A DNA stretch of 64,000 nt, taken from NCBI GenBank assembly GCA_009664345.1, contig CP043547.1, positions 558,001 to 622,000 on the forward strand, written 5' to 3'. Under the pieces are notes generated by a model. It did not search any database and was not told the DNA's origin. It saw only the letters and a program-made list of their open reading frames with translations. The stretch is from Planctomycetales bacterium 10988 (GTDB lineage Bacteria; Planctomycetota; Planctomycetia; Pirellulales; Pb10988). Positions 2,595 to 62,590 of this stretch are shown in pieces; the stretch's first letter is position 1, and each line of letters starts with the position of its first letter. The position numbers and the translations under genes are program-made.

Positions 2595-2622
2595 CCCTGA
2601 ACATGTCGTTCAGGGTTTTTTT
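2595..2622 (+). terminator. Rho-independent terminator after the serine recombinase
   Basis: Perfect 8-bp stem CCCTGAAC / GTTCAGGG with a 5-base loop followed by seven T. It lies just downstream of the recombinase stop and only about 20 bases upstream of the start of the next small gene, which leaves no room for a separate promoter after it. Confidence 0.85.
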
Positions 2623-2644
2623 ATGCGCCAAACAGGAGATTGAT

Positions 2645-2791: not shown

Positions 2792-2989
2792 GAGATTTAA
2801 AGTATTAATTGAACCGTTGCGTTGATGTTTAAAGGAATCGATGTCTGCTAAATCCAAACAGATTTTGCGTCAAGTACCATGAAGGGTTTCCTAGCTATTA
2901 ATCCCACTCCTTTCTATGTTCTCGATTTAAAAATGCATTGAGCTCAATTCCCTGTGATGAGATCTGAGTTAAAAACTCTTTGTCATGGA

Positions 2990-3024
2990 TGTTCGACTCC
3001 TATGGTTGAGTTCGAGCATTTTTT
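2990..3024 (+). terminator. Rho-independent terminator before the DUF1257 gene
   Basis: Hairpin with arms TGTTCGACTC and GAGTTCGAGCA (one bulged T, one G-T pair) followed by six T. It stands about 30 bases upstream of the DUF1257 start codon, the same arrangement seen in front of several other genes here. Confidence 0.7.
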
Positions 3025-3056
3025 ATTGCCGTTTTAAAAAAATGTAGGAGATGTTT

Positions 3057-3425
3057 ATGTCACACATTGTGGAGATTCAAACGGAAGTTCGAGATGTGAA
3101 TGCGTTGCGGGCGGCGTGTGAACGGTTGCGTTTGCCGCTGCCTGTGAAGGGAACATTTCAATTGTTTAGTGGTGAAGTGGAAGGTTTGGGGGTAGAACTG
3201 CCAGGGTGGCGATATCTGGTTGTTTATAACTTAGCGAGCGGGGAGTGCCGTTATGATCACTTCAATGGCAGGTGGGGTGATCCGCAGGAACTTGACCGGC
3301 TGCTACAAAGATATGCGGTAGAAAAGGCAAAATTGGAGGCGAGAAATCGTGGCCATCTTGCTACCGAACAGCTGCTGCCGGATGGCTCAATCAAAGTGAC
3401 CATCAGCATGGGAGGTGCCGCATGA
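3057..3425 (+). CDS. DUF1257 (Ycf35-like) protein
   Basis: Small protein of the DUF1257 family, to which the chloroplast/cyanobacterial Ycf35 protein belongs. The opening MSHIVEIQTEVRDVNALRAA and the internal GWRYLVVYNLASGECRYDHF with a nearby WGDPQELDRLLQRYAVEKA are typical of the family. I chose the second of two ATGs because AGGAG lies six bases before it, whereas it directly abuts the first. The gene overlaps the DUF2997 gene by four bases and is followed by a Ycf46-like AAA ATPase. The same three families are neighbours in cyanobacteria, so the three products probably act together. The biochemical role of the family is not established; here the module travels with a recombinase. Confidence 0.85.
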   Translation: MSHIVEIQTEVRDVNALRAACERLRLPLPVKGTFQLFSGEVEGLGVELPGWRYLVVYNLASGECRYDHFNGRWGDPQELDRLLQRYAVEKAKLEARNRGHLATEQLLPDGSIKVTISMGGAA

Positions 3426-3616
3426 GGAAAGTAATTGAAATTATTGTCTCGCCGACAGGGCAAAGCCAAGTTGAGGCCAAAGGTTTTACTGGAGGTGAAT
3501 GTCGAGAGGCTAGTGAGTTTTTAAAGAAAGGTCTTGGCAAGACACACAATGAGAAGTTGACAGCCGAATTTTATACATCGCAAGAAATTGAACTTCGGCA
3601 ACAACAGCGTGGTTAG
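3422..3616 (+). CDS. DUF2997 protein
   Basis: A 64-residue protein matching the DUF2997 pattern: a short beta-strand opening (KVIEIIVSPTGQSQVEAKGF), then GGECREASEFLKKGLGKT and a polar tail. DUF2997 proteins are small and usually sit next to DUF1257 genes, as here, where the ATG overlaps the upstream stop (ATGA), implying translational coupling. A G-C-rich hairpin with a TTCG loop and T-run follows before the AAA ATPase gene. There is no signal peptide or membrane segment. Function is unknown; it is presumably a partner of the DUF1257 protein. Confidence 0.8.
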   Translation: MRKVIEIIVSPTGQSQVEAKGFTGGECREASEFLKKGLGKTHNEKLTAEFYTSQEIELRQQQRG

Positions 3617-3652
3617 ATCGATTATTTAAAGACATTGTTTCTATTTATACAG

Positions 3653-3675
3653 GCCGCCTTCGGGTGGCTTTTTTT
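3653..3675 (+). terminator. Terminator with TTCG tetraloop
   Basis: Stem GCCGCC / GGTGGC closed by a TTCG tetraloop (one G-T pair) and followed by seven T. It lies between the DUF2997 and AAA ATPase genes, about 25 bases before the ATPase start, so it may act as a partial terminator or attenuator inside the module. Confidence 0.8.
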
Positions 3676-3699
3676 GTTTACAAATACACAAGGTGAAAA

Positions 3700-5190
3700 A
3701 TGACACTTGCAGAACAACTGTCGGAATATGTGCGGGCGTGCTTTACCGGGATTTGGATCGAGTCGCATGAGCATGCTGATGCCTTGAGGGAGATGGCTGA
3801 GCTTTGCCATCAAGAAGGCTGGCAGCTTGGTTCTTGGAATATCGAATCGGGATTGAGGGTCACCGGGCAAAGTACTGAGGAGATAAATACAATCGATCCT
3901 CTGTCGGCGATTCGCTCGGTGAATGCGATGGCCACTCCCGAGGGGACGGCGATCTTGGTGCTGGAAAATTTTCATCGGTTTCTGCAATCGGCGGAGATTG
4001 TACAAGCCTTGAGCAGGCAGATTCTTTTGGGAAAGCAGAACCGAACGATCCTGGTGATTCTTTCGCCTCTTGTGCAGCTGCCGGTCGAACTGGAGAAGAT
4101 GTTTGTGATTTTACAACATGCTTTGCCGGGCCGCGAACAGCTTGATGTGATTGCTCAAGGGATCGCTACCGAAGAGGGTGAATATCCCGAAGATCGTGAT
4201 CGCGAGAGGATTTTGGATGCTGCTTCCGGCTTGACTCGATTGGAAGCAGAAAACGCTTTCAGCCTTTCCTTAGTACGTGAAGGTAGTATTGCGGCGGAGA
4301 CCATTTGGGACCTGAAAGCGCAAACTCTCAAGAAGTGCGGTGCTTTATCGTTGTGCCGTAGTGAAGAAAACTTCGAGAGCCTGGGAGGGCTGGCGGCACT
4401 AAAAACCTTTTGCCGCAGGTCGCTCTTGCAACCAAGTCGGGCGAATCCTCACAAGCGGGCCAAGGGAGTTATGCTGCTCGGGGTTCCTGGAGTTGGGAAG
4501 AGCGCTTTTTGCCGTTCTTTGGGTAAGGAAGTCGGACGTCCGACTATTACTCTGGACGTCGGGAGTCTCTATGGTTCTCTGGTCGGCGAAACCGAGCGAA
4601 AGATCCGACAAGCCCTGGCCACCCTCGACGCGATGGAGCCTTCAATCGTTTTGTTGGATGAAATTGAAAAGGCCTTCAGTGGTCTCGGGAGTTCCGGACA
4701 AACCGATAGCGGGGTTTCTTCCCGGCTGTTTGGCACTTTTCTGCAATGGCTTTCCGATCGCGAGAGTGATGTGTATGTCGTTGCTTCTTGTAATGATATT
4801 TCGAAATTGCCGCCGGAGTTTTCTAGAAGTGAACGATGGGATGGTTTGTTCTTTCTCGATTTGCCAGGCAGGGAAGAGAAAAACATTATCTGGGAGCTTT
4901 ATCGTTCTCAGTATGAAATCGATCCCGATCAACAGCTGCCGAGCGACGATCTTTTTACCGGAGCCGAAATCAAAGCGACTTGCCGACTGGCGGCTTTGCT
5001 TGATTTGCCTCTTTCGCAAGCGGTGCAAAATGTCGTCCCCGTAGCGGTCACGGCGTCGGAATCCATCGAACGATTACGCAACTGGGCTAGCGGCCGTTGC
5101 CTCGATGCCAATCAACCGGGAATTTATCACTGCCCACAGAATGAAGAGGTGGCACGGACTTGCGTGTCGGGTGATCCCTCTATCAATTAA
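3700..5190 (+). CDS. AAA ATPase, Ycf46-like
   Basis: Soluble AAA-family ATPase of the Ycf46 type. The N-terminal half (about residues 1-210) is the poorly conserved region in which family members mimic a degenerate first ATPase fold (ILVLENFHRFL). The AAA core follows: Walker A GVPGVGKS at residues 261-268, Walker B IVLLDE at 316-321, then sensor-like VASCND and a second-region Arg stretch SRSERWD. The length of 496 residues is normal for Ycf46 proteins. The ATG follows AAGGTGAAAA. Linkage with DUF1257 and DUF2997 genes mirrors the cyanobacterial ycf35/ycf46 association. The ATP-driven remodelling role is inferred; the substrate is unknown. Confidence 0.88.
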   Translation: MTLAEQLSEYVRACFTGIWIESHEHADALREMAELCHQEGWQLGSWNIESGLRVTGQSTEEINTIDPLSAIRSVNAMATPEGTAILVLENFHRFLQSAEIVQALSRQILLGKQNRTILVILSPLVQLPVELEKMFVILQHALPGREQLDVIAQGIATEEGEYPEDRDRERILDAASGLTRLEAENAFSLSLVREGSIAAETIWDLKAQTLKKCGALSLCRSEENFESLGGLAALKTFCRRSLLQPSRANPHKRAKGVMLLGVPGVGKSAFCRSLGKEVGRPTITLDVGSLYGSLVGETERKIRQALATLDAMEPSIVLLDEIEKAFSGLGSSGQTDSGVSSRLFGTFLQWLSDRESDVYVVASCNDISKLPPEFSRSERWDGLFFLDLPGREEKNIIWELYRSQYEIDPDQQLPSDDLFTGAEIKATCRLAALLDLPLSQAVQNVVPVAVTASESIERLRNWASGRCLDANQPGIYHCPQNEEVARTCVSGDPSIN

Positions 5191-10058: not shown

Positions 10059-10235
10059 TTATCTAATATACGGAGAAACCTTTTTTCCAAGTGGAGTTAG
10101 TTCGACGATCTCTTCAAGTTTAAACTTAACTCCGTCGGCTGCATCTTTTTCGATTGCCACTTCATCAAGCCTGCTTAACAAACCCCAGGTACAGAGTTCT
10201 CTTAGCTCTTTCCTAGGGCCTGATATGTACTTCCT
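10059..10235 (-). pseudogene. 3' remnant of an unknown gene cut by the IS5 element
   Basis: The frame continues from the transposase remnant into about 55 residues unrelated to transposases, including LCTWGLLSRLDEVAIEKDAA and ending ELTPLGKKVSPYIR. This looks like the C-terminus of an older gene whose upstream part was lost or displaced when the IS5 element landed. The family is not recognised, and no matching 5' half was found on the other side of the element. Confidence 0.3.
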
Positions 10236-10985
10236 GCGGTGAGTCTTGCCAGCAGGATCGCCACGAAGACCTGCTAGTGCCAGCCGGCGGGATCGACCCA
10301 GCCAAGCAAACGTCCGCTCCACCACCCAACGGCGAGGCAACAGCAGGAAGCCGCGTTTAGCTTCGGGATGCTGCACGACCTGCAGTTCAATTCTGTGTTT
10401 GGAGGCTTGGGCGGCAGCCGACTCGCCCGTATATCCCTGAACGGCGTACGCCATCGAGACGCTTTGGCCGGTCCGCCGCTGCATCTGCTCGGCCAACTCC
10501 GCAACCAGATCCCGCTACTGCTCGTTGGCCGCAGTGACCTTCAATGCCAGCAAATTTCCCAGCGTATCCATGGCAAGGTGGACCTTCAAACACTTTTTCT
10601 TTTTTTGCCCATCGTAGCCACTTCGCGAGCCGCTCTCCGGCGTCGATTGCAGCGTGCGACCGTCCAGCACAGCGGCCGAAGGGTCCGCGTTTCGCTGACT
10701 TGCCAACCGCAACAAGACCCAAGGTCGTGGCAAATCATCTCGAACACACCGGCCTGCACCCAGCGACGGGACTGCTGATAGACAGCCGTCCACGGCGGAA
10801 ATCATGCGGCAAGAACCGCCACTAGCAGCCCGTTCGCACCACGTAACGCAGGCGGTAGAACAGCTCCCGCAAGGGATAATCCCGTTGCGGAACGTCCTCG
10901 CGGAGGAGGGCGGGATAAGAGACAGGAAACTCCCACTGCTCGTCAGAAACATCACTAAGATAAGTTCGGCGTGTAGTACTCATTC
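10236..10985 (-). mobile_element. Degenerate IS5-family element
   Basis: On the minus strand the transposase can be followed through at least three frames. The N-terminus near 10980 ([14 protein letters not shown]) is in one frame, the middle with [20 protein letters not shown] in another, and the C-terminal RRWVVERTFAWLGRSRRLA in a third. These are hallmark pieces of IS5-group DDE transposases. Frameshifts and in-frame stops make it inactive. Terminal inverted repeats are not clear to me, so the ends are approximate. It abuts the methyltransferase pseudogene on its right. Confidence 0.75.
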
Positions 10986-12034: not shown

Positions 12035-12973
12035 TCATTCCGCAGAATCGGCAGACTCTTCGTCACTCGCATCGACGACAACTCGGTGTTCAGCTTCGTG
12101 TCCGAAGCCATCAGGGTACTGAAATGGAGGGCGATTGGACCGCATTAGCGGATCGCCCCATATAAGTGACGCCGTAATGTCAGCAAGCATTTGCACAGCC
12201 ACGTTGTGTCCATTGAAAGACGAAGGAAAGCAGCGGTACAACGCATCGTTCTCACTAAATTGCCCCCTCAAGCAGAAACGACCCGCCAAAGACCCGACGA
12301 AATGTGGAAGCGCATAAATGTTACCCGGAACGTCATGAACGAGACGATCTGTGAATGATGTATGCTCCGCAAACTCGTTGTCGATATGCCGCCAGTATGT
12401 CGGTGCCGTCGTTCTTCCCTCAAATCCGATGACAGCGGAAATTACCCTGCCACACCGCTGTTCCATGAGTTGATGTGGGGCGTGCCGCCGTTGTAATTGC
12501 TCAAGCACATGTCGCTTTGCTCGCATCACGTTCCGCAGCCCTTCCCGCAATGGATTGCGCCCATCCGTGTTTAGACGCTTCTTTACTTGAATGAGTCCAA
12601 GCACTGACTCGGGCTGAACAACAACAAAGTCGTCCATGCGAAAGATGGGTCGATACTCACGTTGATCGTGAATCAGAATGTCAATCTCAGGTGATGATTC
12701 AGCATTCATGTCGTTTTCGGACCTGCCGTAGATGAACCCTTTTTCGACCCCCATCCACGGAAGCAGCACACGCCGAAAATAATCTCGAAGCAACACCTCG
12801 CAGAGCGTTCCAGTGTGCAAATGATCGTGCGAATCCGGTCCGAGCAAAAAGTCGATTCGTCGATACTGAGCAAGTAGCGCCACCGCTTCGGAGCTATAAA
12901 AACGAAGCAAGCCTTCGTCTCTCGGTGGAGGGGGAGACGACGGCATCGATGGCAGTGAGGAATCTGTACTCAT
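12035..12973 (-). CDS. DUF6602 protein (possible nuclease-fold)
   Basis: A 312-residue protein with DUF6602 features: a Pro-rich N-terminal tail, then HTGTLCEVLLRDYFRRVLLP, GVEKGFIYGR, a strand with EIDILIHDQ (residues 96-104), and VLGLIQVKKRL (about 124-134). The spaced Asp and the Q-V-K pair are compatible with a PD-(D/E)XK-like core in which the usual Glu is Gln, so activity is uncertain. It is the last gene of the leftward defence operon, after the HEPN and DUF262 genes, although a 276-base gap with a broken small gene separates it from HEPN. DUF6602 genes are often seen in defence and mobile contexts. Its function is inferred only from fold and place. Confidence 0.7.
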   Translation of the reverse strand: MSTDSSLPSMPSSPPPPRDEGLLRFYSSEAVALLAQYRRIDFLLGPDSHDHLHTGTLCEVLLRDYFRRVLLPWMGVEKGFIYGRSENDMNAESSPEIDILIHDQREYRPIFRMDDFVVVQPESVLGLIQVKKRLNTDGRNPLREGLRNVMRAKRHVLEQLQRRHAPHQLMEQRCGRVISAVIGFEGRTTAPTYWRHIDNEFAEHTSFTDRLVHDVPGNIYALPHFVGSLAGRFCLRGQFSENDALYRCFPSSFNGHNVAVQMLADITASLIWGDPLMRSNRPPFQYPDGFGHEAEHRVVVDASDEESADSAE

Positions 12974-13249: not shown

Positions 13250-13714
13250 TCACGAATCGAATCGCTTCTCGATCTCTTCCACAGCTTTCACCGCAGACTC
13301 GTAATACTGTTTTATCGTTGCATATCCTATGCCTACATCTTTTCCGTGTGCGATCAAATGCCGGTTACTCACGACGCTGTCAACGGCATCCTTCATCTCA
13401 TCATCGATGTTTTTCGCAAGCTCATCCTGAAAGTCGTTTCCAAACTCAGACACTACGTCATATATCTTGTTCATCTTGGCGTTCGTAAACATTTTCAGCC
13501 GCTTACCAACAAAGTGGGCAATTTCTGGAGCCGAACGGTCTGAAGCGTAATCAGCGATCAGTGTGCGGACAGATGCTTCAACGAATCCTGACACCAATAC
13601 GCATAGATAACGAGACCAATGAGCTATTAGCTCTGGGTCAGCGTCAAGCTCCTCAACCTTCTTGAAGATTGCGTCTAGCTTCTGCTTATGGCCAACGACC
13701 TTTTTGTTTTTCAT
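13250..13714 (-). CDS. HEPN-domain protein
   Basis: A 154-residue all-helical protein with the HEPN signature Rx4H at residues 118-123 (NRHLIAHG). HEPN proteins of this RiboL-PSP-like group are usually RNases or their relatives in toxin and defence systems. The protein is soluble, with a basic N-terminal head. Its start overlaps the end of the DUF262 gene by four bases, so the pair is translationally coupled, suggesting a two-part unit: a DUF262 NTP sensor or nicking protein with a HEPN partner. RNase activity is inferred from the motif only. Confidence 0.82.
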   Translation of the reverse strand: MKNKKVVGHKQKLDAIFKKVEELDADPELIAHWSRYLCVLVSGFVEASVRTLIADYASDRSAPEIAHFVGKRLKMFTNAKMNKIYDVVSEFGNDFQDELAKNIDDEMKDAVDSVVSNRHLIAHGKDVGIGYATIKQYYESAVKAVEEIEKRFDS

Positions 13715-14850
13715 GGCACATCCCGAAAAACTTCGGTCGCCTTCGATAAGCGAACTTTGACATTCGACTCGTCGGTGGTTCCAGACGAGATGGCGTGAAT
13801 AAACTCCTCATCTTTGAGCAACGTCTCGTAGCGAGTCTTCAGTCCCGGTCCATCTGACACCGGACCTGACTCTAATCGTCGGGCAACACCCACCATGACT
13901 GCATCGTAGAGTGCAGCGTTTATGGCGGACTTAGTCTTGAACGCTCTGTCACCAACCGCACTGCGTATCAAAGACACTGTTGAGCCAAACAGATCGCTAT
14001 AATCCTGTGCCGTTGTTGCGTCTAATGTTCTGTACCTAGCGGCAAAACGATTCAAGAACTCCTTCATTGGCTTCGAGTACTGATCGGAGAGCCGGTATAG
14101 GGCAAGAAATCGAAGAATAAGCTCTCTGTCACGCATTCGGGTGCTGATGTTCCCAAACAGTGCCCTCCAGTTCTCGTCCGTATTGAGCGTCTCAAGCAAT
14201 TCAACAAGTGGGCCGTGGTAGATGCAACTACGAATTTCCTGCGGCTGAAGCAGAACACCGCCCGTATTGAGCCTTTCAAAGATGTGGTAGGCGGAACTTG
14301 GCGATGCAGCATCCTCTCCATCATCTGGGCTTTCCTGCTTCACGATGATGGCATGAATGATTGAATCGTCGAGCCTGAGTCGGTCATCTTCGCTCAGCGT
14401 GTCATACGTCTTCCCGACGAATCGTTCATGAACACCTAGCAAGCGAAATGCCCGATCCGTAGGCTCGAATACCCCGTTGTAGAAGTACTGCAATGTGCGA
14501 AGTCGCTGTTGACCATCAATCACCAGCATCTTGTTGGAGTCAAGCTCTCTCGAAAGAAACACTGCCGGGACAGGAAGTCCCAACAGGAGCGACTCGATGA
14601 AACGAGACGCTCGATATACATTCCAGACAAAGCTCCGTTGGAACATTGGAATATAGATGCTGCCAGCATTGATGCGTTTTACTAGTCCGTCCACCGGGTA
14701 ATCTGCACCGTAGCTCGAAATTGCATACTCGACGGGATAGTATTCCTCACCTACTGGGTCGGCAGCCTCTTCGACTTCCAGTGTATCGGGAGGATTGAGT
14801 TGCTCTTCGTTTAGATCACTTAGATCGTTGTCAGTTGTGTCGTCTGGCAT
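13711..14850 (-). CDS. DUF262 (GmrS-like / ParB-fold) protein
   Basis: A 379-residue DUF262 protein. An acidic N-terminal tail of about 45 residues is followed by the core: IPMFQRSFVWN (residues 67-77), ASRFIESLLLGLPVPAVFLS and the hallmark VIDGQQRLRTLQ with DGQQR at 112-116. DUF262 is the N-terminal domain of GmrSD type IV enzymes, where it uses NTPs. Here there is no DUF1524 nuclease half, and the coupled HEPN gene may supply the effector. It follows the helicase-nuclease gene by 37 bases in the same operon. It may help sense modified DNA, by analogy only. Confidence 0.85.
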   Translation of the reverse strand: MPDDTTDNDLSDLNEEQLNPPDTLEVEEAADPVGEEYYPVEYAISSYGADYPVDGLVKRINAGSIYIPMFQRSFVWNVYRASRFIESLLLGLPVPAVFLSRELDSNKMLVIDGQQRLRTLQYFYNGVFEPTDRAFRLLGVHERFVGKTYDTLSEDDRLRLDDSIIHAIIVKQESPDDGEDAASPSSAYHIFERLNTGGVLLQPQEIRSCIYHGPLVELLETLNTDENWRALFGNISTRMRDRELILRFLALYRLSDQYSKPMKEFLNRFAARYRTLDATTAQDYSDLFGSTVSLIRSAVGDRAFKTKSAINAALYDAVMVGVARRLESGPVSDGPGLKTRYETLLKDEEFIHAISSGTTDESNVKVRLSKATEVFRDVP

Positions 14851-17800: not shown

Positions 17801-18058
17801 GTGTTTGACGATGTTCTGGTCGTAGCCGAGGAGCGTGTCACCCGGAAACTCGGCGTACTCCCAGAGCAGCTTCATCTGGTGAAGGAATCTGTGGACGTTG
17901 TTCTCGTCCAGTCCCTCCAGTTCCAGCGGCTTTAGATTCTCGGCCAGCTTGTCGAAGCTGCTCACCTCGAACAGCGACAGCATCCACTGGTTCAGGACGA
18001 GTTTCTCGTCAAACCTCAGCGGCGGCGTCTCGTTCTTCTTGGCTCGTTTCTTACCCAT
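14888..18058 (-). CDS. res: Type III-like restriction helicase-nuclease (Res-like)
   Basis: A 1056-residue superfamily 2 helicase with a nuclease tail, resembling the Res subunit of type III restriction enzymes. The helicase core shows Walker A ATGSGKT at residues 162-168, DEGH box at 265-268, SATFGQ and the later GRGVRL motif. Near the C-terminus NFYPDFLLWLL then TFVDPKG gives a PD...DxK pattern (residues 945-965) expected for a restriction-type nuclease. I chose the ATG behind GGAGATCAGTC, which overlaps the protease stop by eight bases; an upstream in-frame ATG at 18154 lies deep in the protease gene. It is expected to translocate on or cleave unmodified DNA together with the Mod-like protein, though the exact system type is uncertain. 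Confidence 0.85.
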   Translation of the reverse strand: MGKKRAKKNETPPLRFDEKLVLNQWMLSLFEVSSFDKLAENLKPLELEGLDENNVHRFLHQMKLLWEYAEFPGDTLLGYDQNIVKHTLALSEKRAEPLKWKYFQYLSLLFTEVYLDRFFRDPEKLLADLNQHVTKFNEGKSTKEQIPEYQPEDLRKLAFWNATGSGKTLLMHVNILQYQHYLKLHDKEKSLNRIILLTPNEGLSKQHLEEFDASGIDADQFSKESRSLFSGKTVEIIEVTKLKEEMGQKTVAIDAFEGNNLVLVDEGHRGASASVEGAWMSARNRLCENGFSFEYSATFGQAMKGKKGLEPIYAKNILFDYSYKYFYRDGFGKDYRILNLADDSDEERRRLYLTACLVAFYQQQKLYDVNPDTFRPFLLEKPLWVFVGGKVNAVRTVKKKAVSDVVDILLVLSEFVKNKRESISLLDRLLSGKPGLLNQRGEEIFATAFPYLVSTKLSGEEIYNDILKVLFNSSTQAALHVENLKGTDGEIALRLGENDAFGLINVGDAPKLCKLCENFPDDLIVTEKEFSGSLFREINEDNSTVNVLIGSKKFTEGWNSWRVSTMGLMNVGKKEGSEIIQLFGRGVRLKGHDMTLKRSSQLEGIERPKNIRLLETLNIFGVRADYMRQFKEYLEDEGLPGNEERIEFILPVVKNLNGKKLTSVRIEEGKDFKAHGPKPTLAEPFERLLRHPVSLNWYPKIQAQQSKGVAKTEDSAVKHEGTLEEKHLAFMDIDAIWFELQHFKNERSWYNLNLNRDCIEPLLLDSRWYKLFIPPEELEFTSFDRVRRWEEIAVALLKKYTDRYYKNKKQEWESDFYEYHELREDDKNFVTEYRLLIDESQEAIVEKLGELKGKIEDGTLADWSFGNLHAISFGQHLYQPLLLFKSDFVDVSPVSLNQGEKEFVTDLRTFYDDNPTFFEDQELYLLRNMSRGRGIGFFEAGNFYPDFLLWLLTDDNQYVTFVDPKGIRNLEGPDDPKIRFYRTIKELEARLGDPNVILNSFIISNTPFQQVRWWTEDLSKDEFTKAHVLFQKEDRNTYIKRLLTTAASEQQVTVDT

Positions 18059-18632
18059 GACTGATCTCCGACGAGCCTGCGACATTGTTCCCTTGGGCGT
18101 TGATCCTCTGCACATTCTCATCGCAGAGGAATGGCGGATCGCCGACAACATCAATGGTGGGAGCGAACTGCATTATGCAGTTGTTATGTCCGCACGTTCT
18201 GTCAATCGTCCCACCGTCGTCGTAGCAGTCCTCGGCACCCAACAGGTGAAACATCTCGTGCCAAATGAGAATCGGATCGTGATGATATACTGCGACGAGG
18301 CATCCACACCTCGCTCCCCAATGCGCATGCGGTGCTTCATTTCTCGCCTTGACTGCCAACTCCGAGTCTGAGTCACAGCAGATCACAAGGCTAGGAATTG
18401 GCCCCAGATTGTCGGCAAGCATTCCACACGTCGCAGCAGCACAATCGACAAAAGAATGCTCTCTTCCAATGGCATTTTGGATTTCGGCAACCTTATTGCT
18501 GGCGAGTGGAGAGACATGGCACACAGCGCTTTCGGCAACTTGCTTTACGATGGACGGAAACTTTTCGATGGCTTCCTTGTCCTTGCGAGCATCTTCGGCA
18601 GAGAGTTCATCGGTAAAGTATTTAATCTCCAC
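18051..18632 (-). CDS. Small metzincin-like zinc metalloprotease in the restriction operon
   Basis: A 193-residue protein I cannot assign to a named family. It has a complete metzincin-type zinc site: HEMFHLLGAED at residues 125-135 (HExxHxxGxxD, two His and an Asp as likely zinc ligands, Glu126 as base). NNCIMQFAPT follows at 150-159, with Met154 placed as the Met-turn. Several Cys residues (CC, CGC, CGHNNC) are notable. The first part (VEIKYFTDELSAEDARKDKE) is polar, with no signal peptide, so it probably acts inside the cell. I chose the GTG two bases after the methyltransferase stop with GGAGG upstream. Its stop overlaps the helicase-nuclease start, so it is embedded in the operon. Its target could be an operon partner or a phage protein; that is speculation. 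Confidence 0.7.
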   Translation of the reverse strand: MEIKYFTDELSAEDARKDKEAIEKFPSIVKQVAESAVCHVSPLASNKVAEIQNAIGREHSFVDCAAATCGMLADNLGPIPSLVICCDSDSELAVKARNEAPHAHWGARCGCLVAVYHHDPILIWHEMFHLLGAEDCYDDGGTIDRTCGHNNCIMQFAPTIDVVGDPPFLCDENVQRINAQGNNVAGSSEISHG

Positions 18633-18634: not shown

Positions 18635-21640
<3,006 letters not shown>

Positions 21641-21657
21641 TGTGTTCCCTCGTCCTG

Positions 21658-24534
21658 TCAAACCACTTCCCACTGGATGGTGAAGAGGTGGGTGCGGTGT
21701 GTTTTCTGGGTCATTCGTTGTTGGAGGCCGTCGATCAGATCGTCACGCTTTTCAGCGATCTCATCTTCCACCTCGAAGATTTGTTGACGCTGTTTTCGTT
21801 GCTTCTTCTCCAGATCACGGAGCTTCTGTTGGAGTTCGTTCTGCTCATCGAGTGTGGTCGCCAAGCGTGACTGTCGCCGGACGGCTTTGATCTGAGCTTT
21901 GGTGTCGGCCAAGTCCTTCTCGGCAGCGACCACCATGTCCTCGGCCCACTTCTCAAGTCGCTCACGCTCTTCGTGGAACAAGGTGTTGTTGTCTTCCAAA
22001 GAGCAAGCAGCGACGGCATCAGCGTGCAGGCTGGACTCGACACCAAGCCGAGTCTCGGCATCTTCGGGAAGACCGTCAACGAGTTCGGTCGTCGCTGCGC
22101 AGTGGAAGAGCTTCAGGCAGGTCTCTTGGTCCAGTGACTTGCCGTTCTCGTCCATAGCCGAGAAGAGCAAGTATTCCTCTCGGTCGAAGGAATCGATAGT
22201 GAGGTACTGGAGCGTGAGCCAGCCCGACTTCCCTTTTAGAGCTTCGACGACGGAGACCTTCATGGGATAGTTGGTCACGTCGAAACTGACCTTCGCAACC
22301 GGGGTCTCGGCCTGCTTGCCCTGATCGATACTCCACTCGCCCAGCGGATGCGAAAGCCGGTACAGGAAGTCGCCAGGGACGTTCTGCTGTGACTTGGAGA
22401 TCAGGTGGTACGTTCCGGGCCGACATGTACTCAGAGGTGCCTCACGAAGCTGGAACGTGAGTGTGTCGTCGCAGAAGGAGGCATGACCATACAGCACAAC
22501 TTTGGTCAGGGTCCAGAACTGGCGACCGATCCGGTCGAGGTTGGCACGGGCGTCAGCAAGACGCATTTTCAGTCGAGCGTGAACATCCTCGTCGAAATGC
22601 TCCATGAGCATCTGTCGGGTCTCATCCATCTTTGACTGGATCGTCTCGTCCATCTCCTCTTGAAGCTGCTTGAAGGCGGCATCGATCTCGTCGGTGGTCC
22701 GACACTTCTCGTAGATGGCGAGGATGCGTTTCTCGAAATCGACCCCCGACTCGATCTGCCCCAGCACTTCGTCGGACGCACCGAAAACACCATTGAACAG
22801 GTTGAACTTCTCGGCCAGCAGTTCATGGACTCGACGGTCAGCTTCGTTTCTCTCATTCAGGAAGTTGATGACTACGACATCATGCTTCTGACCGTAGCGA
22901 TGGCAGCGACCGATCCGCTGCTCGATCCGCTGGGGGTTCCAAGGCAAGTCGTAGTTGATGACCAGCGAGCAGAATTGCATGTTGACGCCTTCCGCCGCTG
23001 CTTCGGTGGCGATCATCACTGTGGCTTCATTCTGAAAGTGTTCGATCAGGGCCGTGCGGCTATCGACGGGCCGGGAGCCGGTGACTCGGCCAGAGTCGGC
23101 ATTGTCCTCGATCCACTTGGTGATGATCTGACGGGAATCAGGATCGGCGTTGGTCCCATTGAACAGGACAATCTGACCGCCGTAGCCATTCGATTCGAGG
23201 AAGTTCTTCAGGTAGTCCTGCGTTCGTCGAGACTCGGTGAAGATGAGGGCCTTGCGGTTGGCACCCATCTTGTCCATCTCGGCGAAGCCAAGTTCAAGAG
23301 CCTGCTTGAGTGACCGACTCTTGGTGTCGATGCCAATGCTCCGTGCCCACTGGGAGTAGCGAGTGAGTTCGGTGATCTCTTCGTTCAGCTTGGGAAGGTC
23401 GATCTGGTCGTCATCTTCCTCTTCTCGGTCTGTGGTCCCTTCGAGAATCTCGTCGAGGTAGTCATCTTCGAGTTCCTCTGCCTCGATCAGTTCCTCCATG
23501 AACACCTCGTCGTCCTTCAGTTTGGGAGTGTCACGCATCTCCTCCAGCCGGGCCTTCATGGTCTCCAGTGTGTTGGCGATGGCGTGAGACGATGAGGCCA
23601 GCAACTTGCGCAGGATCAGCGCAGTCAGATGACGCTGACGATGTGGAACCGAGTAGGTCTCTTCCCTGTTCAGGAAGTCCGACACCGCCTCGTAGAGTTT
23701 TTGCTCATCGTCGGTGGGACGAAAGCGGACGGTGAAAGGGATGCGCTCGGTGTACTGGATGTACTCGACGACTTGCCGCCTGAGGGTTCGCTTGCAGAAG
23801 GATAGGAGTCGGCCACGAAGAGCATTCAGATTGGCCCCCGCATTCGTGTACTGGGTCCGAAACGAATTCACGTCACCGAAGATCAAATCATCGAGGATCG
23901 TGGAAAGACCGTAGAGTTCGAGCAGCGAGTTCTGAAGAGGCGTGGCCGTGAGCAGGCACTTCTTCCGGTCCTCGATGGCCCATTTGATGTTCTGACCCAT
24001 CTTGTTGCTGGGCCGATAGGCATTGCGAAGCTTGTGCGCTTCGTCGATGACTACGAGATCAAAAGGGACGGCCCGGATGCCTCCTCGGAACCGGCTGGCG
24101 AAGTGGAACGACGTGATGACAACTTTGTCACTGGCGAACGGAGTGCCGTTGCCCCCTCGGACAGCCTGCTTGTACGTCTTGGAGTCGAGGATCATCGTGG
24201 GCATGTTGAACTTCTCTTGAAGCTCCAGCGCCCATTGTTTTCGCAGGCTGGCCGGGCAGATGACCAGCAGCTTTCGCTTTCGCTCGGCCCAGTGTTGGCA
24301 TAGGACCAGGCCAGCTTCGATTGTCTTGCCAAGTCCAACCTCGTCAGCCAGAATGACGCCCTTTGTAAGTGGGCTTCGCAAGGCGAACATCGCCGCCTCG
24401 ATCTGGTGAGGGTTCAGATCAACGCAGGCGTCGAAGAGTGCCATCGACAAACGTTCCACGCCACCCGGCTGTGCCTGCCGGGTCAACTCGTGAGCAAAGT
24501 ATTTTGCATGGTACGGCGTGGTCATCCGGCCCAT
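21658..24534 (-). CDS. SNF2-family helicase (DrmD/RapA-like)
   Basis: A 958-residue SNF2-type DNA translocase and first gene of the leftward defence operon. Walker A DEVGLGKT lies at residues 64-71, DEAH at 164-167, then LLTATPLQNS and the C-lobe with LIFTESRRTQDYL and RIEQRIGRCHRYGQ (motif VI). An acidic insertion (ELEDDYLDEILEGT, then REEEDDD) separates the lobes, and the C-terminus is a long charged coiled coil. The ATG after ACGGAGGACG was picked; a second ATG nine bases later is possible. SNF2 helicases of this kind occur in class 1 DISARM and related systems, but no DUF1998 or PLD gene accompanies it here. It probably remodels or scans DNA for the methylase and nuclease. Confidence 0.88.
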   Translation of the reverse strand: MGRMTTPYHAKYFAHELTRQAQPGGVERLSMALFDACVDLNPHQIEAAMFALRSPLTKGVILADEVGLGKTIEAGLVLCQHWAERKRKLLVICPASLRKQWALELQEKFNMPTMILDSKTYKQAVRGGNGTPFASDKVVITSFHFASRFRGGIRAVPFDLVVIDEAHKLRNAYRPSNKMGQNIKWAIEDRKKCLLTATPLQNSLLELYGLSTILDDLIFGDVNSFRTQYTNAGANLNALRGRLLSFCKRTLRRQVVEYIQYTERIPFTVRFRPTDDEQKLYEAVSDFLNREETYSVPHRQRHLTALILRKLLASSSHAIANTLETMKARLEEMRDTPKLKDDEVFMEELIEAEELEDDYLDEILEGTTDREEEDDDQIDLPKLNEEITELTRYSQWARSIGIDTKSRSLKQALELGFAEMDKMGANRKALIFTESRRTQDYLKNFLESNGYGGQIVLFNGTNADPDSRQIITKWIEDNADSGRVTGSRPVDSRTALIEHFQNEATVMIATEAAAEGVNMQFCSLVINYDLPWNPQRIEQRIGRCHRYGQKHDVVVINFLNERNEADRRVHELLAEKFNLFNGVFGASDEVLGQIESGVDFEKRILAIYEKCRTTDEIDAAFKQLQEEMDETIQSKMDETRQMLMEHFDEDVHARLKMRLADARANLDRIGRQFWTLTKVVLYGHASFCDDTLTFQLREAPLSTCRPGTYHLISKSQQNVPGDFLYRLSHPLGEWSIDQGKQAETPVAKVSFDVTNYPMKVSVVEALKGKSGWLTLQYLTIDSFDREEYLLFSAMDENGKSLDQETCLKLFHCAATTELVDGLPEDAETRLGVESSLHADAVAACSLEDNNTLFHEERERLEKWAEDMVVAAEKDLADTKAQIKAVRRQSRLATTLDEQNELQQKLRDLEKKQRKQRQQIFEVEDEIAEKRDDLIDGLQQRMTQKTHRTHLFTIQWEVV

Positions 24535-24548
24535 CGTCCTCCGTCTTG

Positions 24549-24577
24549 TTGACCAAAAAGTACAGGCAGCATACGAT
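24549..24577 (+). promoter_or_regulatory. Predicted sigma70-type promoter for the XRE regulator
   Basis: TTGACC and TACGAT are separated by exactly 17 bases, ending about 36 bases before the regulator ATG. The 79-base gap between the divergent helicase and regulator genes must hold both promoters, so the regulator probably controls both. Confidence 0.5.
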
Positions 24578-24613
24578 AAACCCACTTCACAGGCAATCAG
24601 GTGAGGACTTGGG

Positions 24614-24883
24614 ATGCAGTTTGGCGAGCGAGTTCGTGAGCTTCGAGAAGCCCGGAAGCTGACTCAAAAGGCGTTCGCTGACCGGCTCGGTGTGAGCGTC
24701 TCGTACATCAGCAAGGTCGAGAACGAGAAGCTGCACTTCGGCGACTACCCGTCCGAGAAGTTCATCCACAAGCTGGCCTCAGAGCTTGAGGCGGACGAGG
24801 ACGAGTTGCTGCTGATTGCCGACATAGTGCCTCCTCAATCCGGCAGCGAATCAGAGAGAACCCCGAAGCTTTTCGCTTACTAG
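24614..24883 (+). CDS. XRE-family HTH regulator, probably frameshifted at its C-terminus
   Basis: A helix-turn-helix regulator. MQFGERVRELREARKLTQKA and FADRLGVSVSYISKVENEKL form the HTH, followed by the FGDYPSEKFIHKLASELEAD and EDELLLIADIVP region typical of regulators beside restriction and toxin-like loci. After about residue 73 the annotated frame gives SGSESERTPKLFAY and stops. The neighbouring frame instead continues as IRQRIRENPEAFRLLATLSD, the expected ending of this protein type. One base therefore seems to be missing near 24832. It is divergent from the SNF2 helicase and likely autoregulates both arms of the island. The HTH domain is intact. Confidence 0.85.
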   Translation: MQFGERVRELREARKLTQKAFADRLGVSVSYISKVENEKLHFGDYPSEKFIHKLASELEADEDELLLIADIVPPQSGSESERTPKLFAY

Positions 24884-24906: not shown

Positions 24907-25770
24907 GTGAAGTCATTTTGGAGAAAGAAGGCTCTTCGGAACTTCCTGCGACGATCTCATGTCTCCGAGTCGTTCCTTGCCTCCCTTCCTGAAGATGAAA
25001 CGAAGCGAGACTGGCTGGACCGACTGTTTCCTCGATTGGAAGGGACCGAGAAAGGGCAATCACTCTTACAGCAGATGGCTCGTTCGCTGTCTAAACAGGA
25101 CAACTTCCCTGATCTCCTCCACTGGGAAGACTCAGAAGAAAAGATTCGAGATGCCAAAGCCGCTGTCGCAGCGTTGAAGGAGTACATCAACCGCAAGGAC
25201 AAAGAGAAGCGGGACGAGCAGGAAGTCATCCGTAACCGTCGTGAAGACGAGGAGCGGCGTCAGGCAATCGTCCGCTCCCAAATTACGTTCGACTCCTTGC
25301 GGACCAGACTCGACGACTTGTGTAAAGAGATTGGCACACAAAAGGCAGATTACGAGTTTCAAGACTGGTTCGACGACTTGATGGACTTCTTCGATGTTGA
25401 CAACAGGCGTCCTTACACAATTGACGGTCGGCAGATTGATGGATCGATCACCTTGGACGGCACGACGTACCTCGTCGAGTTGAAGTTCACTACGGATCAG
25501 TCAGACGCTACAGCCGTCGATTCACACTTGAAGAAGGTGAACGATAAAGCCGACAACACGATGGGCATTATCGTGTCAATGTCAGGGTACTCCTCCGTGG
25601 CAAGATCTGAGGCATCATTTTCGAGAAGCCCGTTGTTGCTCCTTGATGCAACTCACCTGTATTTCGTCTTGGGCAGTCTCGGTACATTCCCTGATCTCAT
25701 GCGAAGAGTACGGCGTCACTCATCCCAAGAAGGGCAGGCGTACTTGGCTGTTGCGGACTTCGGCAAATGA
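24907..25770 (+). CDS. PD-(D/E)XK nuclease-like protein
   Basis: A protein of about 287 residues with a helical, charged N-terminal half (residues 1-145, including a coiled coil with KEYINRKDKEKRDEQEV) and a C-terminal restriction-endonuclease-like fold. In the latter, GRQIDGSITLDGTTYLVELK places Asp178 and Glu191-x-Lys193 as the catalytic PD-(D/E)XK set, followed by NTMGIIVSMSGYSS. The GTG start has no good binding site, and the same frame is open upstream through the displaced C-terminus of the XRE regulator, so the true start is uncertain. It is followed with a four-base overlap by the hydrolase gene. Likely a DNA nuclease effector of the island; target unknown. Confidence 0.7.
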   Translation: MKSFWRKKALRNFLRRSHVSESFLASLPEDETKRDWLDRLFPRLEGTEKGQSLLQQMARSLSKQDNFPDLLHWEDSEEKIRDAKAAVAALKEYINRKDKEKRDEQEVIRNRREDEERRQAIVRSQITFDSLRTRLDDLCKEIGTQKADYEFQDWFDDLMDFFDVDNRRPYTIDGRQIDGSITLDGTTYLVELKFTTDQSDATAVDSHLKKVNDKADNTMGIIVSMSGYSSVARSEASFSRSPLLLLDATHLYFVLGSLGTFPDLMRRVRRHSSQEGQAYLAVADFGK

Positions 25771-26848: not shown

Positions 26849-27004
26849 CAGTAGTTCGTTCTGTCTGTGATTCGTTTTCCCGTCCTCCCAACAGCAGGTG
26901 CCTCAATCGTCGCCTGCGTTCCAAAAGTTGTATTGGCCATTTCTGAAGGAGTATCAGGCACTTGCTACGTTGTCACCGGCATCCTTACTCAGGAGACGAC
27001 GATC

Positions 27005-27601
27005 ATGCCAAGTCAAACCGACATTCGCCAACAGATCACCGACCAGATCATCGCCGCCCTTCGTTCTGGCAATTTGCCGCCGTGGAAGTCGCTGAACGGT
27101 CCTCACCGCAACGTCGTGAACCAACGCAGCTACACGGGCGTCAATCCGCTGCTCTTGGAGATTTCGAGCCAGCGTTTTGATTTCACCTCTTCGCTTTGGG
27201 GCACGTTCAAGCAGTGGAAGGAACTCGGCGGCATCGTGAGGAAACGCCCCGCCGATGTGGAGCCCGGTGCGTGGGGAACCACCATTGTCTTCACCATGCC
27301 GGTCACGAAGTCGAAGACCGACAGTGACGGCACCGAGTCCGAAGACAAGTATTGGGTTCTCCGTTCCTACACGGTCTTCAATCTGGACCAAGTGGAAGGG
27401 CCTTTCGACCATCAGCGTGCCACGGTCAACGATCAGGCCAGAACATTCGAGCAGGCTGCCGAACTGATCGACGCCACGGGCGCAGACATTCGTAAGAGAT
27501 CGCAAGCGGCGTACATTCCGTCCGGCGACTACCTTACGTCGTTAGTTCGTATCTCGGAAGATCAAACCGCTCCTGCAGAGGCACAAGTAGGCACCTGCTA
27601 G
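27005..27601 (+). CDS. ArdC-like antirestriction protein, C-terminally truncated
   Basis: The first about 125 residues match the ArdC N-terminal single-stranded-DNA-binding domain: IRQQITDQIIAALRSGNLPP, WKSLNGPHRNVVNQRSYTGV with NPLLLEISS, and the later WGTTIVFTMPV and YTVFNLDQVEG. ArdC normally continues into a zinc metallopeptidase domain with a His-Glu motif; here the sequence stops soon after RSQAAYIPSGDYL and the metallopeptidase half is missing. I chose the ATG at the ArdC-like start; an upstream ATG at 26867 lacks family sequence. ArdC shields incoming DNA from host restriction, so its presence next to a restriction operon is notable. About 55 bases downstream an IS3 remnant begins. 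Confidence 0.75.
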   Translation: MPSQTDIRQQITDQIIAALRSGNLPPWKSLNGPHRNVVNQRSYTGVNPLLLEISSQRFDFTSSLWGTFKQWKELGGIVRKRPADVEPGAWGTTIVFTMPVTKSKTDSDGTESEDKYWVLRSYTVFNLDQVEGPFDHQRATVNDQARTFEQAAELIDATGADIRKRSQAAYIPSGDYLTSLVRISEDQTAPAEAQVGTC

Positions 27602-27930: not shown

Positions 27931-28341
27931 TGACTATACCACAGGCTGGACTCGATTCAGGAGGCCGGGTCAATCCAAGTCGGGGCGTTACTAAGAGGCA
28001 CGGACAATACCTCCCGATTCAGAGTGAAAACACTGCGTTTGATTGTTTTAGACACCTACAAATCAGTTTAGTGGAAACTTTTAAACTAACCGATTAAGAA
28101 GATAGAGTTAACCTGAGGGAGAAATGAAATAAATTGTCTCACTAATTATTAGCATTGTCACTTGATAAGCTAGTCAAGCTGCTGTATTATCCACTTGATT
28201 AATTCGCTTATATTATTAAGAAATAAAACTACCAACTTATTGCCGCTCAAACTGTCGGCTCATAGATCATGGGAAGTGATAAGAAAGTAGTGAGAATGAT
28301 CGTTTAAAAAGTCGTTTCGTCAGAATAATTTGGAAAATCAC
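27931..28341. other. AT-rich intergenic region upstream of the giant genes
   Basis: No gene is visible. The base composition changes from the G-C-rich neighbourhood to markedly A-T-rich sequence by about 28.05 kb. The promoter of the giant genes must be here, but I could not single out one clear -35/-10 pair among many A-T-rich candidates. Confidence 0.5.
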
Positions 28342-31300
28342 ATGAATATTTATTGGCTTTCACTGACCGGTATCGACTCTCAAAAGCCTATCGAAAACAA
28401 CTTTTATATGATGCTTGTGCATCATGAGCAAAAGTACAGATTGGCTTTCCTGGTTTGTAGAGAACAAGACGATCAAGAATACAATCGAGAATATCACGAC
28501 TTCTTTATGGAGTGTAAGCTTCAAGAATATTCACTTAGTGACGGAAGCCGGGACGAGTTAAGAGTATTTCTCGAAAATGAGCTTTGTCGGCAGAACCCAG
28601 ATAGTGAGAGCTGGGTAATGTATCAATTTGGCGATGATAGCTACCTAATTCCTTTTGATAGCGATGAAATAAAGATTGGTTCTGCCGGTAAATATTTAGG
28701 GATTGATCCAAACATCAGCGGGAGCTGGATTCAACGACCTTCAAGCTTTGCCTTAGGTGAAGATGCATCAAATCTAAGTAGTAAGGTAAATAGTAACTTC
28801 ACTTCAATTACGAGTCGGTTCGAATTCACTAACAACACCTATGACTTTAGTTTCGCTATATCCAATGATGGAACTGGAGATCAGCTCTTAACAAATCTTC
28901 CGTTTACTATTCGGCTTGCCGACTTCATCTCACGTAAGAAGTCTACTAGCCATCAATTCGGATTTATTGCCGTAGGACCTATGTTTGAAATAGATTGGAT
29001 TGAAAATAACATTAATTTTTATCTAGAACAGGACATTATATCGCTTGATTTTATTCTTGAAAGTAGTGTTACTTTTGAATATCCCTTGAACATTTCCCGT
29101 ACTACCTTGGTGAGGTTCACTGGTGACAATCTTGCAATCCGTATCCCCTTGGTTAAACCCGAATTACTGCCCCAACTCATAGCATTAAATTCAGATGCTT
29201 TTAGTCTCGAAGTCGAAACTGGATTAATCACAAGCCTGATTCAAACGACAGACAAATTCCGTTCACAAGCCGCAGATACTCTACAGGATGATTTAGTATA
29301 TCCAATACGGCCAGAAGCTGAGACTCTAGGAGATCAGATCCGACAAGCTAACCCCTTTTGTTTGAGAGGAGACGCAGCAGTAGTCGAAGGTAGTGGAGGT
29401 GGGATTCTACAGTTTGAAGATGGTGGAATACCCACATGGCATGAAAGTATCCAAGCAAATCCCTCTTTGTTTATATATACACAGGTTGAGTCCCAGATTT
29501 CAAATGGAATTTTATCAACGTTTGAAATAGATCTTGAAGGTTTAGGCATTAACAAGCAGGGCACGTTAGCTTTGCAAAAGGCTGGCACCTGGGTTGATTC
29601 TTCATCTATTACTGAGATTTACTTTCCCGTAGTTTTCCAATTAACCCCGGGAGTCGGGAATCCAGTTTTCCTTGAGATTTTGATAACTTATAATTTGCTT
29701 GAAATGAGGATGACAAGCACAAGGTTTATATACCGGTTTATCCAATCTCAGGATTTCATCGGTCAGGGCTCCCTATGGTACTCTTCTAAGATTGATAGCT
29801 CTAATCGTCAGATAGATTTTTCGTTGTTCGCATTAGAGGGACCATTCTCAACTGGAGCTGATAGGCTATCTGATCAAAACCAAACAGGGGAAATTGACTT
29901 TCAATTGGGAGAGCTTACCTTAGCCCCTGGTAACCTATCTAATAAAGAAGACTTTAGACTTTTAGTACCTGGGGGCGAGTACGCTTCAGCAAATAGTAAT
30001 AAGCGTTTTCGCCTTAAACTTCAGCAAATTGAATCAGGCACTCCTCTTATCAAGCAAAATACAAAATTTCAGGCTGAATATTTCCGTATTAGTCGGCAGG
30101 GTGTTTCTGTATTTGCAGAATTGCTAGAGGGGTCTGAAATAGAGCTAATTTCTGATAGTAATACTATGAACCCTCTCCATGCCAAAGCTTTAGCGCTAAG
30201 CAAGGAGGGAGAAAAAAGCCTAATTAAGCTTAACGACAACTCAGTCGAAGTGGCTCAACTATATGCACGAATGCAAGTACCAGGAACAAAAAATCTTCAA
30301 AGTGAAATCTTTGCTCGTTTTGTGCAGGAAAAAGTCCACGATAGGCACACTGCTAGTTTTCAGGCTTACTTAGGGCTAGCTGGAAACTCTTCTGAGCCAA
30401 AGGTAGGTCTTTCTAACGAGATTTTCAATGCTACGATATCCAACCCTAGATTTTGGCTGCAGTGGAATAATGAGAACTGGGATGTGGGAACACTCGTTGA
30501 CGCCACGCTAGAAGTACATCCTAGTATATCAATGTCAGATGGGATGACCGAGCTTAAGGGAAGTAATTCAATCATTGTTAAGGATCTTGATTTAGTAAAA
30601 CTACATGGAAAAACAACGAACAATCGAACTATAGAGTTAGAACTTAAAACTCGAAAATTTGCCTTCTCTCTATTTGATGCAATTGGAATAGAACTTGATA
30701 AGGTCGTTCTAAAGTTGAAGTCAGATAAAATCAATTTCTTTAGCGAGAAGGCTACGCTAGACTTTAATTTAGGAGGTGGAATACGCGGTGGAGTTCGTGT
30801 TGGGAGCCTTGATCTTGAGTGCTCAAAAAAACATATAGAAGTTTCCAGAATCACCGGTGCTGGAGTGAGCTTAAATGTTCCAGGCTTGTTTAACTTTGAT
30901 GGCGATATATCATGGGGCTCAAAAGAGCAATCAGACTCGCATTATATAGCACTCAACGGAATCCTGGAAACCACAGGGCTAAGGTTAGAAGGATTGCTAA
31001 TCTATGAGTCCAACTTTAAACGAAATGGAAGAAGAGCAGACTCCATAGTTGCAGTGGGTGGAAAAGGAAATCTGAATTACATGCTCCTTCAATCTTTATG
31101 GTGGCAGACAGCTAGTCTAGGAGCAGGATATAACAGTAAATTAGGTAATCTCTCCCAAACACCTACTAATAACGAAATTCTTCGCAAAATTGATAATTTA
31201 GAACCAATAGATCCAGAGAATTGGGATTTCGTTTCTGACGAAGGAACATATGCGACAGTAGTAGGAAAAGCCATATTTACCTCGCAACCAGCTGGTCCAA

Positions 31301-34300
31301 GGACGATATGTGGCTTTGTAATTTGGTCAGTGCTTTCTTTAGATTCTCAGTCGAGATTTATCGCAGCAGGTAAGCTTTGGCTCTTTTCAAGTCAACGTTT
31401 TGCGGAGCAAAATGCCGAGTCTCCGTCCCTAATTGCTGCTATGCATTTCGATCCTCGCAGCCCTAGTCTATCTTTAGTGGCAAAGACCAATCGGGCTGGC
31501 AAAATAGAATCTATGCCTCATTTACAACAAATCCTGAACCAAGTTGACGCCCAATTGACGATTCGGCTCGACCGCAACTTACTTGATATATATTTAGAAA
31601 GACTTAAATACCGTCAAGAATTCATAAGAAACCAGTTTGAGTTTGAAGCTACATGGCGATTCGTTATATATGACACAACTATTTTACAATACGCACGTGC
31701 TAAGGTTTCTGGAAGCTTTGGCGATTCTTTAAAAGAGGCGAATGCAGGGATCAGCTTTAAGGTAGACCTTTATTCCGGTTTAGACTATGGAGGTTTATAC
31801 GGACGCAATGGCCTACTTACATGGGGGCGATTGGATGCACAACTAACAGCTTCTATTGAAGCATTTTGTATGTTTGAAATTCGTACTCCTCATGTTAAAT
31901 GGAGAGGCTGGAAATCAACTGTTGAATGGAGAACTCACACAAAGAAATTCCCCTTTCGTGGGAAATCTTCGCTCGGTTTCACAGGTGAATACGCTTTTGA
32001 AGCCAACCATAGCATTTCGGTTGGTGGTCGGATATATGTGCATTTTCATAGGCATATATGTGGAAACGAAGTTAATATCTCACCCGAATTGAAATTTCAG
32101 CCTTCGGTACTTAAAAAAGCTCGAGATCAGACGAGAGCTTTCGAAACTAGGATTGATTCTGTCGGGCGTCCAGATTCTCTGCAAGTTTCCAACGCAAAAT
32201 TAAACAAATTATTGCTTCGCTTGGATAGATTGAATCAAACCGAATCCCGTCAAACCGAAGAATGGATTCTCGTGCCTGCTGCTCATGAAGAAGACAACTC
32301 TCGATGGGTAATATTACCTACTTTTAATACCGAATGGTTCGTTAGTACTTTTTTACCACCTGAGCAAGGACAAGAAGAGCAAATACACGTTGATTTCTTA
32401 AGTTGTGTAGAGGCGATAAATTTATATCATGATCAAGATTTAATCGAAACGATACGTCCAGCCTGGGATCAAAGAAACTGGCGAGAAACGCCGATAGGAA
32501 ATGACGCAAACGATGAGGCTATAGAACTATACCGTCTTAATGCTATGCTTGCTGAAACTGTTCCTGAACAAAACAGTCTCTACCATCAAAAGATGGAGGA
32601 GATTGAAAGAGGAAAAGGCCTTAATGAATATGAAAAGATTATCGACGAACGCCCTTACAAACGTTTAAGAGATGCACTATCGGATGAGGATCGACTAACC
32701 CTGCCTGCTGAAGTATATCCTTTCACATATCGTCCCTTGTCTAATCCATATTTTGAGAAAAAACGACGTATGATGATCAAACGTCGTCAGGGAGTTCAGG
32801 GAGTTCATGACGGATTAACTTCTTGGCATCAAGCGAGAGGAGCACTGCTTAGTTTCATTCTAGCTGGACTGGAATCTGGACGCGGGATTTTGACAAAATC
32901 TTATATTTCCTCGGAATCAAGCTACTACACAGCCTATGTGCGTTCTTCCCCTTTACCGGATAGCGCGAACCATAAGTTTAAGGTGGTTCGAGATGGAGAA
33001 GAATCAGATGTTGATATAATCTCCGCACATGATCCTCTACTTCTTTCCGAATTGAGAAATAAAATCACTGTATTTCGAGATTGTCAGGAGTTTCACGAGT
33101 TCAATCCAGAAACTAGCGCGGACCCGGGAAGTGGCGAAGTTGTTATCAAGTTACCTGTTGATATACGTGCTTTGTTTGAACCAATAAAGGTGAGAAGAGG
33201 GCACATCGAAAAAAGTTACGCTACAAATTGGTTTGAGCTGGTACAATTTGTACGCATTATACGGGGAGACTCTGAGATTATTGCTGATCAGGTTCCTCTT
33301 CCAGCGAATATTAGTCGAGTTACCGGATCAGACGAATTTGTCTTACTAGAGCCATTCGTTTGTAGCGATCAAGTCAAAGTCGATGCCAGTCAGCGACAAA
33401 AAGTTGCGTCAACCTTATCTCGAAAAAGCTATCGTTTGCAAATAGTTCCCCTGGGAATGGAATCTCTACCGATAAACCATCCACAATTAAAAAATTTGGA
33501 AATCAATTTTCCCGACGTTTATCCTTATTTACCAGGAAGAAGAATCTTTCCCAACGATCTAGCTTTGGAGTTTGACCCGTTCTGTGATAGTTCTAGTTCT
33601 ACATTAGACATCCGCCTCGTGCATATGACGTCTGAAGTCCAAAGTTTAAGGCTTGAAACTGCCACATTAACACTAGGTGACTTTGAGCTATTTTATCTAG
33701 AAGATGAAATATCAAACAACGGATTTTATTCACAGACAATCGAGGAAGATGGTAGTCTTTTAACTAATAACCAAAAAAAATATCAAGGAAAAGGTCGTGA
33801 ATCGCGAGTTGCTGGAGAGGCATCTGACTCTGAATTACGTTCTACCCACGGTCTTACACCTATTACTGTAATTTATCATGATGCAGACAATTTAGGGGTT
33901 AGCCAATACGGGCTTGAGTCAAATCTGATTGAATCAACTCTAAATAATTCAGAAAGTCCATCCGTAAAGCTAACCTTAATACAAACAAATCGTGTCGGTT
34001 TTTATCGTTTAGGATCGATTGATCCAAATAAAGTTTACAATTTTTATATTAGAGCCGCTGGTTCGTCAGACCTTGTGCCAGTAAGACATCTTCCTGTATT
34101 TGTCAGTCGGGGAACTATCGATCGCGATGGAGAAAATTTGCCTCTTGCTGTACCTGGATTGGAGATGGTGAAGCCAGTTGGACCAGAATTAATCGACTTT
34201 AACTTAAGAACCCTCTCGAAAAAAGAAGCTACCGAAAATTTTCCGTATCATCAACTAATTGTTAGTTGGACACATTTAGCAACTCAAAATCAGAGCAATT

Positions 34301-60605: not shown

Positions 60606-62590
<1,985 letters not shown>

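Follow-up and report, generated by a model that had tools for sequence, protein, structure and literature searches.

The window analysed here, a stretch of 64,000 nucleotides from Planctomycetales bacterium 10988, carries a restriction operon on its minus strand. Its genes encode a SNF2 helicase, a DNA methylase (Mod), a metzincin-like protein, a helicase–nuclease (Res), an NsnA-like protein, a HEPN protein and a DUF6602 protein. These genes and their divergent neighbors are collected in Table 1. The true start of the SNF2 helicase is probably at about residue 18–21 of the listed ORF, and that of Mod at about residue 12.

Table 1. Coordinates of the restriction operon, the embedded protease gene and the adjacent divergent genes.
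Feature	Coordinates	Strand	Remarks
DUF6602 protein (PD-DExK/NucC-like matches)	12035..12973	(-)	PF20247 1.7e-13; PADLOC PD_DExK 9.6e-14
HEPN (RiboL-PSP) protein, overlaps NsnA-like gene	13250..13714	(-)	PF18735 1.3e-16
GmrSD_N/DUF262 protein (NsnA-like), directly after Res	13711..14850	(-)	PF03235 1.1e-27; PADLOC NsnA 6.9e-72
Res, ResIII helicase with C-terminal PD...DxK nuclease motif, 1056 aa	14888..18058	(-)	PF04851 2.4e-10; PADLOC REase_III 1.5e-234
Metzincin-like zinc metalloprotease gene, cargo gene	18051..18632	(-)	193 aa; conserved motif; without known family
HExxHxxGxxDC stretch, candidate catalytic zinc site	18225..18260	(-)	H125, E126, H129, G132, D135, C136
Mod, N6/N4 DNA methylase, type III kind	18635..21673	(-)	PF01555 2.5e-31; PADLOC MTase_III 2.5e-233
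SNF2 helicase (DrmD-like), first gene of the operon	21658..24585	(-)	PF00176 3.2e-31; NF038318 DrmD_b 668 bits, cut-off 950
HTH regulator, divergent from SNF2 gene	24614..24883	(+)	PF13560 2e-13
Mrr_cat-like protein, adjoining HTH gene	24907..25770	(+)	PF04471 0.0015, just below cut-off

In plasmid relatives of the operon, the HTH gene lies upstream of SNF2 in the same direction instead of divergently. Near the restriction operon, the product of 26867–27601 has the N-terminal domain of ArdC (anti-restriction), and two giant adjacent ORFs lie downstream of this gene at 28330–37395 (3021 aa; low GC, 0.40) and 37449–44969 (2506 aa). Overlapping minus-strand ORFs at 10059–10955 are apparent IS transposase remnants, and serine recombinase-type genes (596–2566 and 61167–62567) are found close to both ends of the window. 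The recombinase genes suggest that the region consists of one or more integrated mobile elements.

The protease gene reads from a GTG at 18632, with GGAGG 10 nt upstream, to a TAA at 18051. The original prediction placed its start two bases past the methylase stop. Both coordinates and frame hold, with a 2-bp gap separating the Mod stop codon (TAG) at 18635 from the GTG. The predicted overlap of the gene's end with the nuclease start was likewise found: the Res ATG at 18058 shares 8 bp with the protease 3' end, TAA included (ATGGGTAA). By these two junctions, the gene is embedded between the methylase and nuclease genes and translationally coupled within a type III-like operon. Its GC3 (0.57) resembles that of the downstream accessory genes (0.52–0.54), unlike that of the core (0.69–0.79).

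The encoded protein carries the zinc motif H125-E126-x2-H129-x2-G132-x2-D135-C136 and a candidate Met-turn, C152-I-M154-Q, in which M154 lies 19 residues past D135. Searched as a DNA pattern, HExxHxxGxxDC was present a single time in the window and absent from all 100 dinucleotide shuffles. Relatives were sought in fewer than 1200 distinct genomes, a partial sampling, and matches in other genomes weaker than E 1e-3 were treated as chance. A single clear homologue was identified among the genomes searched, a 201-aa protein on contig 166 of genome G466 (E = 1.7e-34). It shares 39% identity with the protease across residues 38–181 and about 32–39% overall, and retains all of the candidate zinc ligands, the Glu and the Met. 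The metzincin clan zinc motif, HExxHxxGxx(H/D), and the candidate Met-turn downstream of it, here M154 in C-x-M-Q, are kept in both proteins at the level of sequence; both elements had been noted in the original prediction. Seven cysteines are also common to the pair (38, 86, 111, 136, 147, 152 and 170), and the conserved blocks read WHE[ML]FHLLGAEDCY, TCGHxNCxMQ and VGDPPFxC. Because the homologue retains the motif residues and the seven cysteines, the gene is taken to be real and its motif to be under selection. As in M54 proteins, there may be a second, structural zinc site formed by cysteines 136, 147, 152 and 170.

The homologue is encoded on a 4.2-kb contig (L170), where it adjoins IS21 istA/istB within the stretch 790–4115, with no Mod or Res on the contig. 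The same genome has a Mod–Res locus elsewhere (L050), and the site between its Mod and Res genes is empty. A search with the protease protein alone found no close relatives in genome contigs, viral contigs, plasmids or phages, and the homologue as query gave no match in plasmids or phages. A viral scan with a synthetic motif-only alignment returned 511 motif matches and no relatives. The protease matched no family in Pfam, NCBIfam, PADLOC or PHROGs; in Pfam, no family was reached by the protease at E up to 1 or by the homologue at E up to 10. A phmmer search of PDB chains also gave no match. On these sequence searches, the protein probably represents a rare and new zinc-protease family. AlphaFold runs on alignments of one and two sequences gave unusable models (pLDDT 40.5 and 35.4), so that the metzincin label stands for the motif and not for the fold. 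No signal peptide was visible on inspection by eye, in agreement with the original prediction, and we infer a cytosolic zinc metalloprotease that would be co-expressed with the restriction genes.

The SNF2 helicase–Mod–Res operon is widespread. The best 80 genome loci with Mod relatives came from Planctomycetota, Bacteroidota, Bacillota, Pseudomonadota and others; further relatives were found in phylum-mates, on plasmids (including one conjugative Klebsiella plasmid) and on viral-collection contigs. SNF2, Mod and Res were syntenic in most of these loci. The gap between Mod and Res, measured in 93 non-redundant loci, was at most 150 bp in 51, 150–500 bp in 2 and more than 500 bp in 40, while the SNF2–Mod gap exceeded 500 bp in 18 of 76 loci. 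At empty sites, the Mod stop is usually within about 15 bp of the Res start. Nearly all of the ORFs of at least 150 aa in the slot (57 of 60) are oriented along the operon.

Cargo at the Mod–Res junction is exchangeable, and the tenants of this slot other than the protease are mostly defence genes or genes resembling them. An AAA ATPase was present in 16 loci and a DUF4276 partner in 14 (one locus pair being a duplicate), followed by Fic in 5, PHP-ATPase in 4, RhuM in 3, and NsnA-like and Abi_C genes in 2 loci each. Singletons include a YhcG-type nuclease, Schlafen AlbA_2, DUF3800 and DUF5615. The cargo was matched in PADLOC by HEC-01A (7.9e-139), HEC-01B (2.8e-78), NsnA (6.3e-103) and Ppl (5.9e-34), and in Pfam by Fic, Abi_C, RhuM, Schlafen and YhcG nuclease. 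On the Aeromonas plasmid pE31A, an annotated AAA plus DUF4276 pair lies between Mod and Res. Relatives of the window's own NsnA-like gene occupy the slot in two other loci (L078 and L094); with this gene directly after Res, cargo would seem to flank Res on either side. The protease was found at the junction in none of the 93 other non-redundant loci, leaving the window as the sole linked locus; no transposon remnant was seen in its slot. Neither the Mod–Res slot nor a metzincin in phage defence is described in the freely available literature searched. We also know of no description of a metzincin-type protease being used in phage defence.

The three closest relatives of the core (L032, L033 and L055) have Res proteins 85–86% identical to that of the window and a nucleotide identity of 80–88%. 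Identity ends exactly at the Mod stop codon in L032, 1 bp short of it in L055 and 13 bp short in L033. It restarts exactly at the Res start codon in L032 and 2–3 bp upstream of it in L055 and L033. Between these points, L032 holds a PHP-ATPase gene, L033 an AAA plus DUF4276 pair and L055 a DUF5615 PIN-like gene. The protease gene is a non-core gene in a restriction operon and is missing from the operon's other copies; it is swappable cargo and not a maturation factor needed by the core. Since the core is widespread without it and near-identical cores differ in their cargo, neither the maturation nor the restraint of Mod or Res requires the protease. The original prediction allowed that it could activate or silence a partner by cleavage; such a role as a built-in part of the system is not supported, as 93 other loci lack it, about half of which have an empty slot.

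We give roughly even chances to the reading that the gene is accessory cargo of the slot, encoding a zinc metalloprotease that is quiet until infection and then provides a second-line anti-phage defence. An accessory antiphage effector tied to the expression of the restriction genes is the most likely role because the other tenants of the slot are mostly defence genes. During normal growth, the protease would be silent or would lack a substrate; upon phage infection, it would work as the second line of defence. Its target might be an essential protein of host or phage, cleaved once restriction fails or is inhibited, which would combine the logic of PrrC with the chemistry of Lit; alternatively, it might destroy an anti-restriction protein. 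The trigger and substrate steps of this model are ones that we infer. The protease is possibly, by analogy with PrrC and Lit, a guardian of the restriction–modification system, which on the logic of PrrC and PARIS would be activated when restriction is inhibited, and it may attack a phage protein, as first suggested from the sequence. More tentatively, and with somewhat less confidence than we place in the accessory role, it may constitute a new metzincin-like protease family that acts against phage as an effector, or as a guardian of restriction, from an exchangeable cassette in the SNF2–type III-like Mod–Res slot. Accessory genes embedded in restriction operons are known; a protease-like gene among them would be new.

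The tight translational coupling of Mod, protease and Res would also suit a regulator of the restriction system, which by cutting Res or Mod would curb self-restriction or switch Res on, and the degradation of HsdR by ClpXP is an established precedent (PMC12707154). Such a role is unlikely: the core lacks the protease in 93 other non-redundant loci, half of them with an empty slot, three relatives with Res 85–86% identical hold other cargo, and proteins so nearly identical would have to be cleaved specifically in one strain only. A factor that degrades phage or plasmid inhibitors of restriction, i.e., an anti-anti-restriction protease, would fit the placement of the gene within a restriction operon, and the island also has ArdC-type anti-restriction genes in circulation (26867–27601). 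The present data do not separate it from the effector model, and we know of no case of such a protease; only a small probability is assigned to it.

As the gene is linked to Mod/Res only once, its capture there might be accidental and its role unrelated. A selfish or chance passenger without a defence role, carried for example by transposition, would account for a gene that is very rare and patchy, with one linked locus, and for the IS21 istA/istB genes flanking the homologue. Nevertheless, the swap is codon-precise with coupling preserved on either side, the slot showed no trace of a transposon, and most of its other occupants are defence genes, which makes a passenger rather improbable. With AlphaFold models unusable (pLDDT 40.5 and 35.4), the protein might also be an HExxH protein that is catalytically inactive or has a function other than proteolysis. 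With the candidate zinc ligands, Glu and Met all retained at about 32–39% overall identity, this is very unlikely.

The protease is a tangible candidate for a proteolytic step in immunity tied to restriction. Should it act as an antiphage effector or restriction guardian, we would know of no earlier metzincin in bacterial immunity. The slot itself is probably of wider interest than the protease. It offers a codon-precise docking site for defence genes within one operon, so that any tenant is a good candidate for antiphage function, and cargo swaps between near-identical cores are ready-made pairs for testing what the cargo contributes.

The operon resembles type III restriction–modification systems in that genes for a Mod methylase and a ResIII helicase–nuclease adjoin, directly so in relatives with an empty slot. 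Unlike type III systems, it has an extra SNF2 helicase, a larger Mod (about 1000 aa) and the mod/res cargo slot. The DrmD-like SNF2 helicase is a likeness to DISARM, but membership was rejected as DrmA, DrmB and DrmC are missing among the operon genes and the DrmD score is below the equivalog cut-off. As had been supposed for the classic systems, no such protease was found in the defence libraries searched.

Archaemetzincins (peptidase family M54, PF07998; 2x7m, 4axq and 3zvs) are of similar size to the protease (160–210 aa) and share its HExxHxxG core, a Cys directly after the third ligand, the C-x-M Met-turn and a further Cys about 16 residues on. The M54 pattern HExxHxxGxxHC-x4-CxM-x17-CxxC is nevertheless not matched: the third zinc ligand is Asp instead of His, the C-to-C spacing is longer, Met and Cys are separated by x15 and the last Cys of CxxC is Asn. 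The C-terminal tail (C-x-M ... C) scored above all 2000 shuffles against 4axq, and its score against 2x7m was reached by 0.25% of shuffles; this likeness is suggestive only because the tails were picked for the shared motif. Against two planctomycete M54 proteins, the tail was not above chance, and hhalign aligned the HExxH stretch alone. M54 membership was rejected, with no PF07998 match and two M54 hallmarks missing.

Snapalysin-type metzincins (M7) have the motif HExxHxxGxxD and, like the protease, Asp as third zinc ligand. They are secreted, whereas the protease has no visible signal peptide and no Pfam match. The Lit protease of E. coli is likewise a small HExxH zinc protease, acting in phage defence by cleaving EF-Tu. 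It belongs to a different family and its gene lies outside any restriction operon. BrxL of BREX is a component of a methylase-based defence operon that was annotated as protease-like (Lon-like), but is an AAA+ DNA-binding assembly and not a zinc protease (PMC12707154). PrrC, embedded in the EcoprrI type IC locus and active once restriction is inhibited, offers the likeness of an accessory effector gene within a restriction operon (PMC12707154). PrrC is a tRNA nuclease in a type I locus, whereas here a protease-like protein is housed in a type III-like one.
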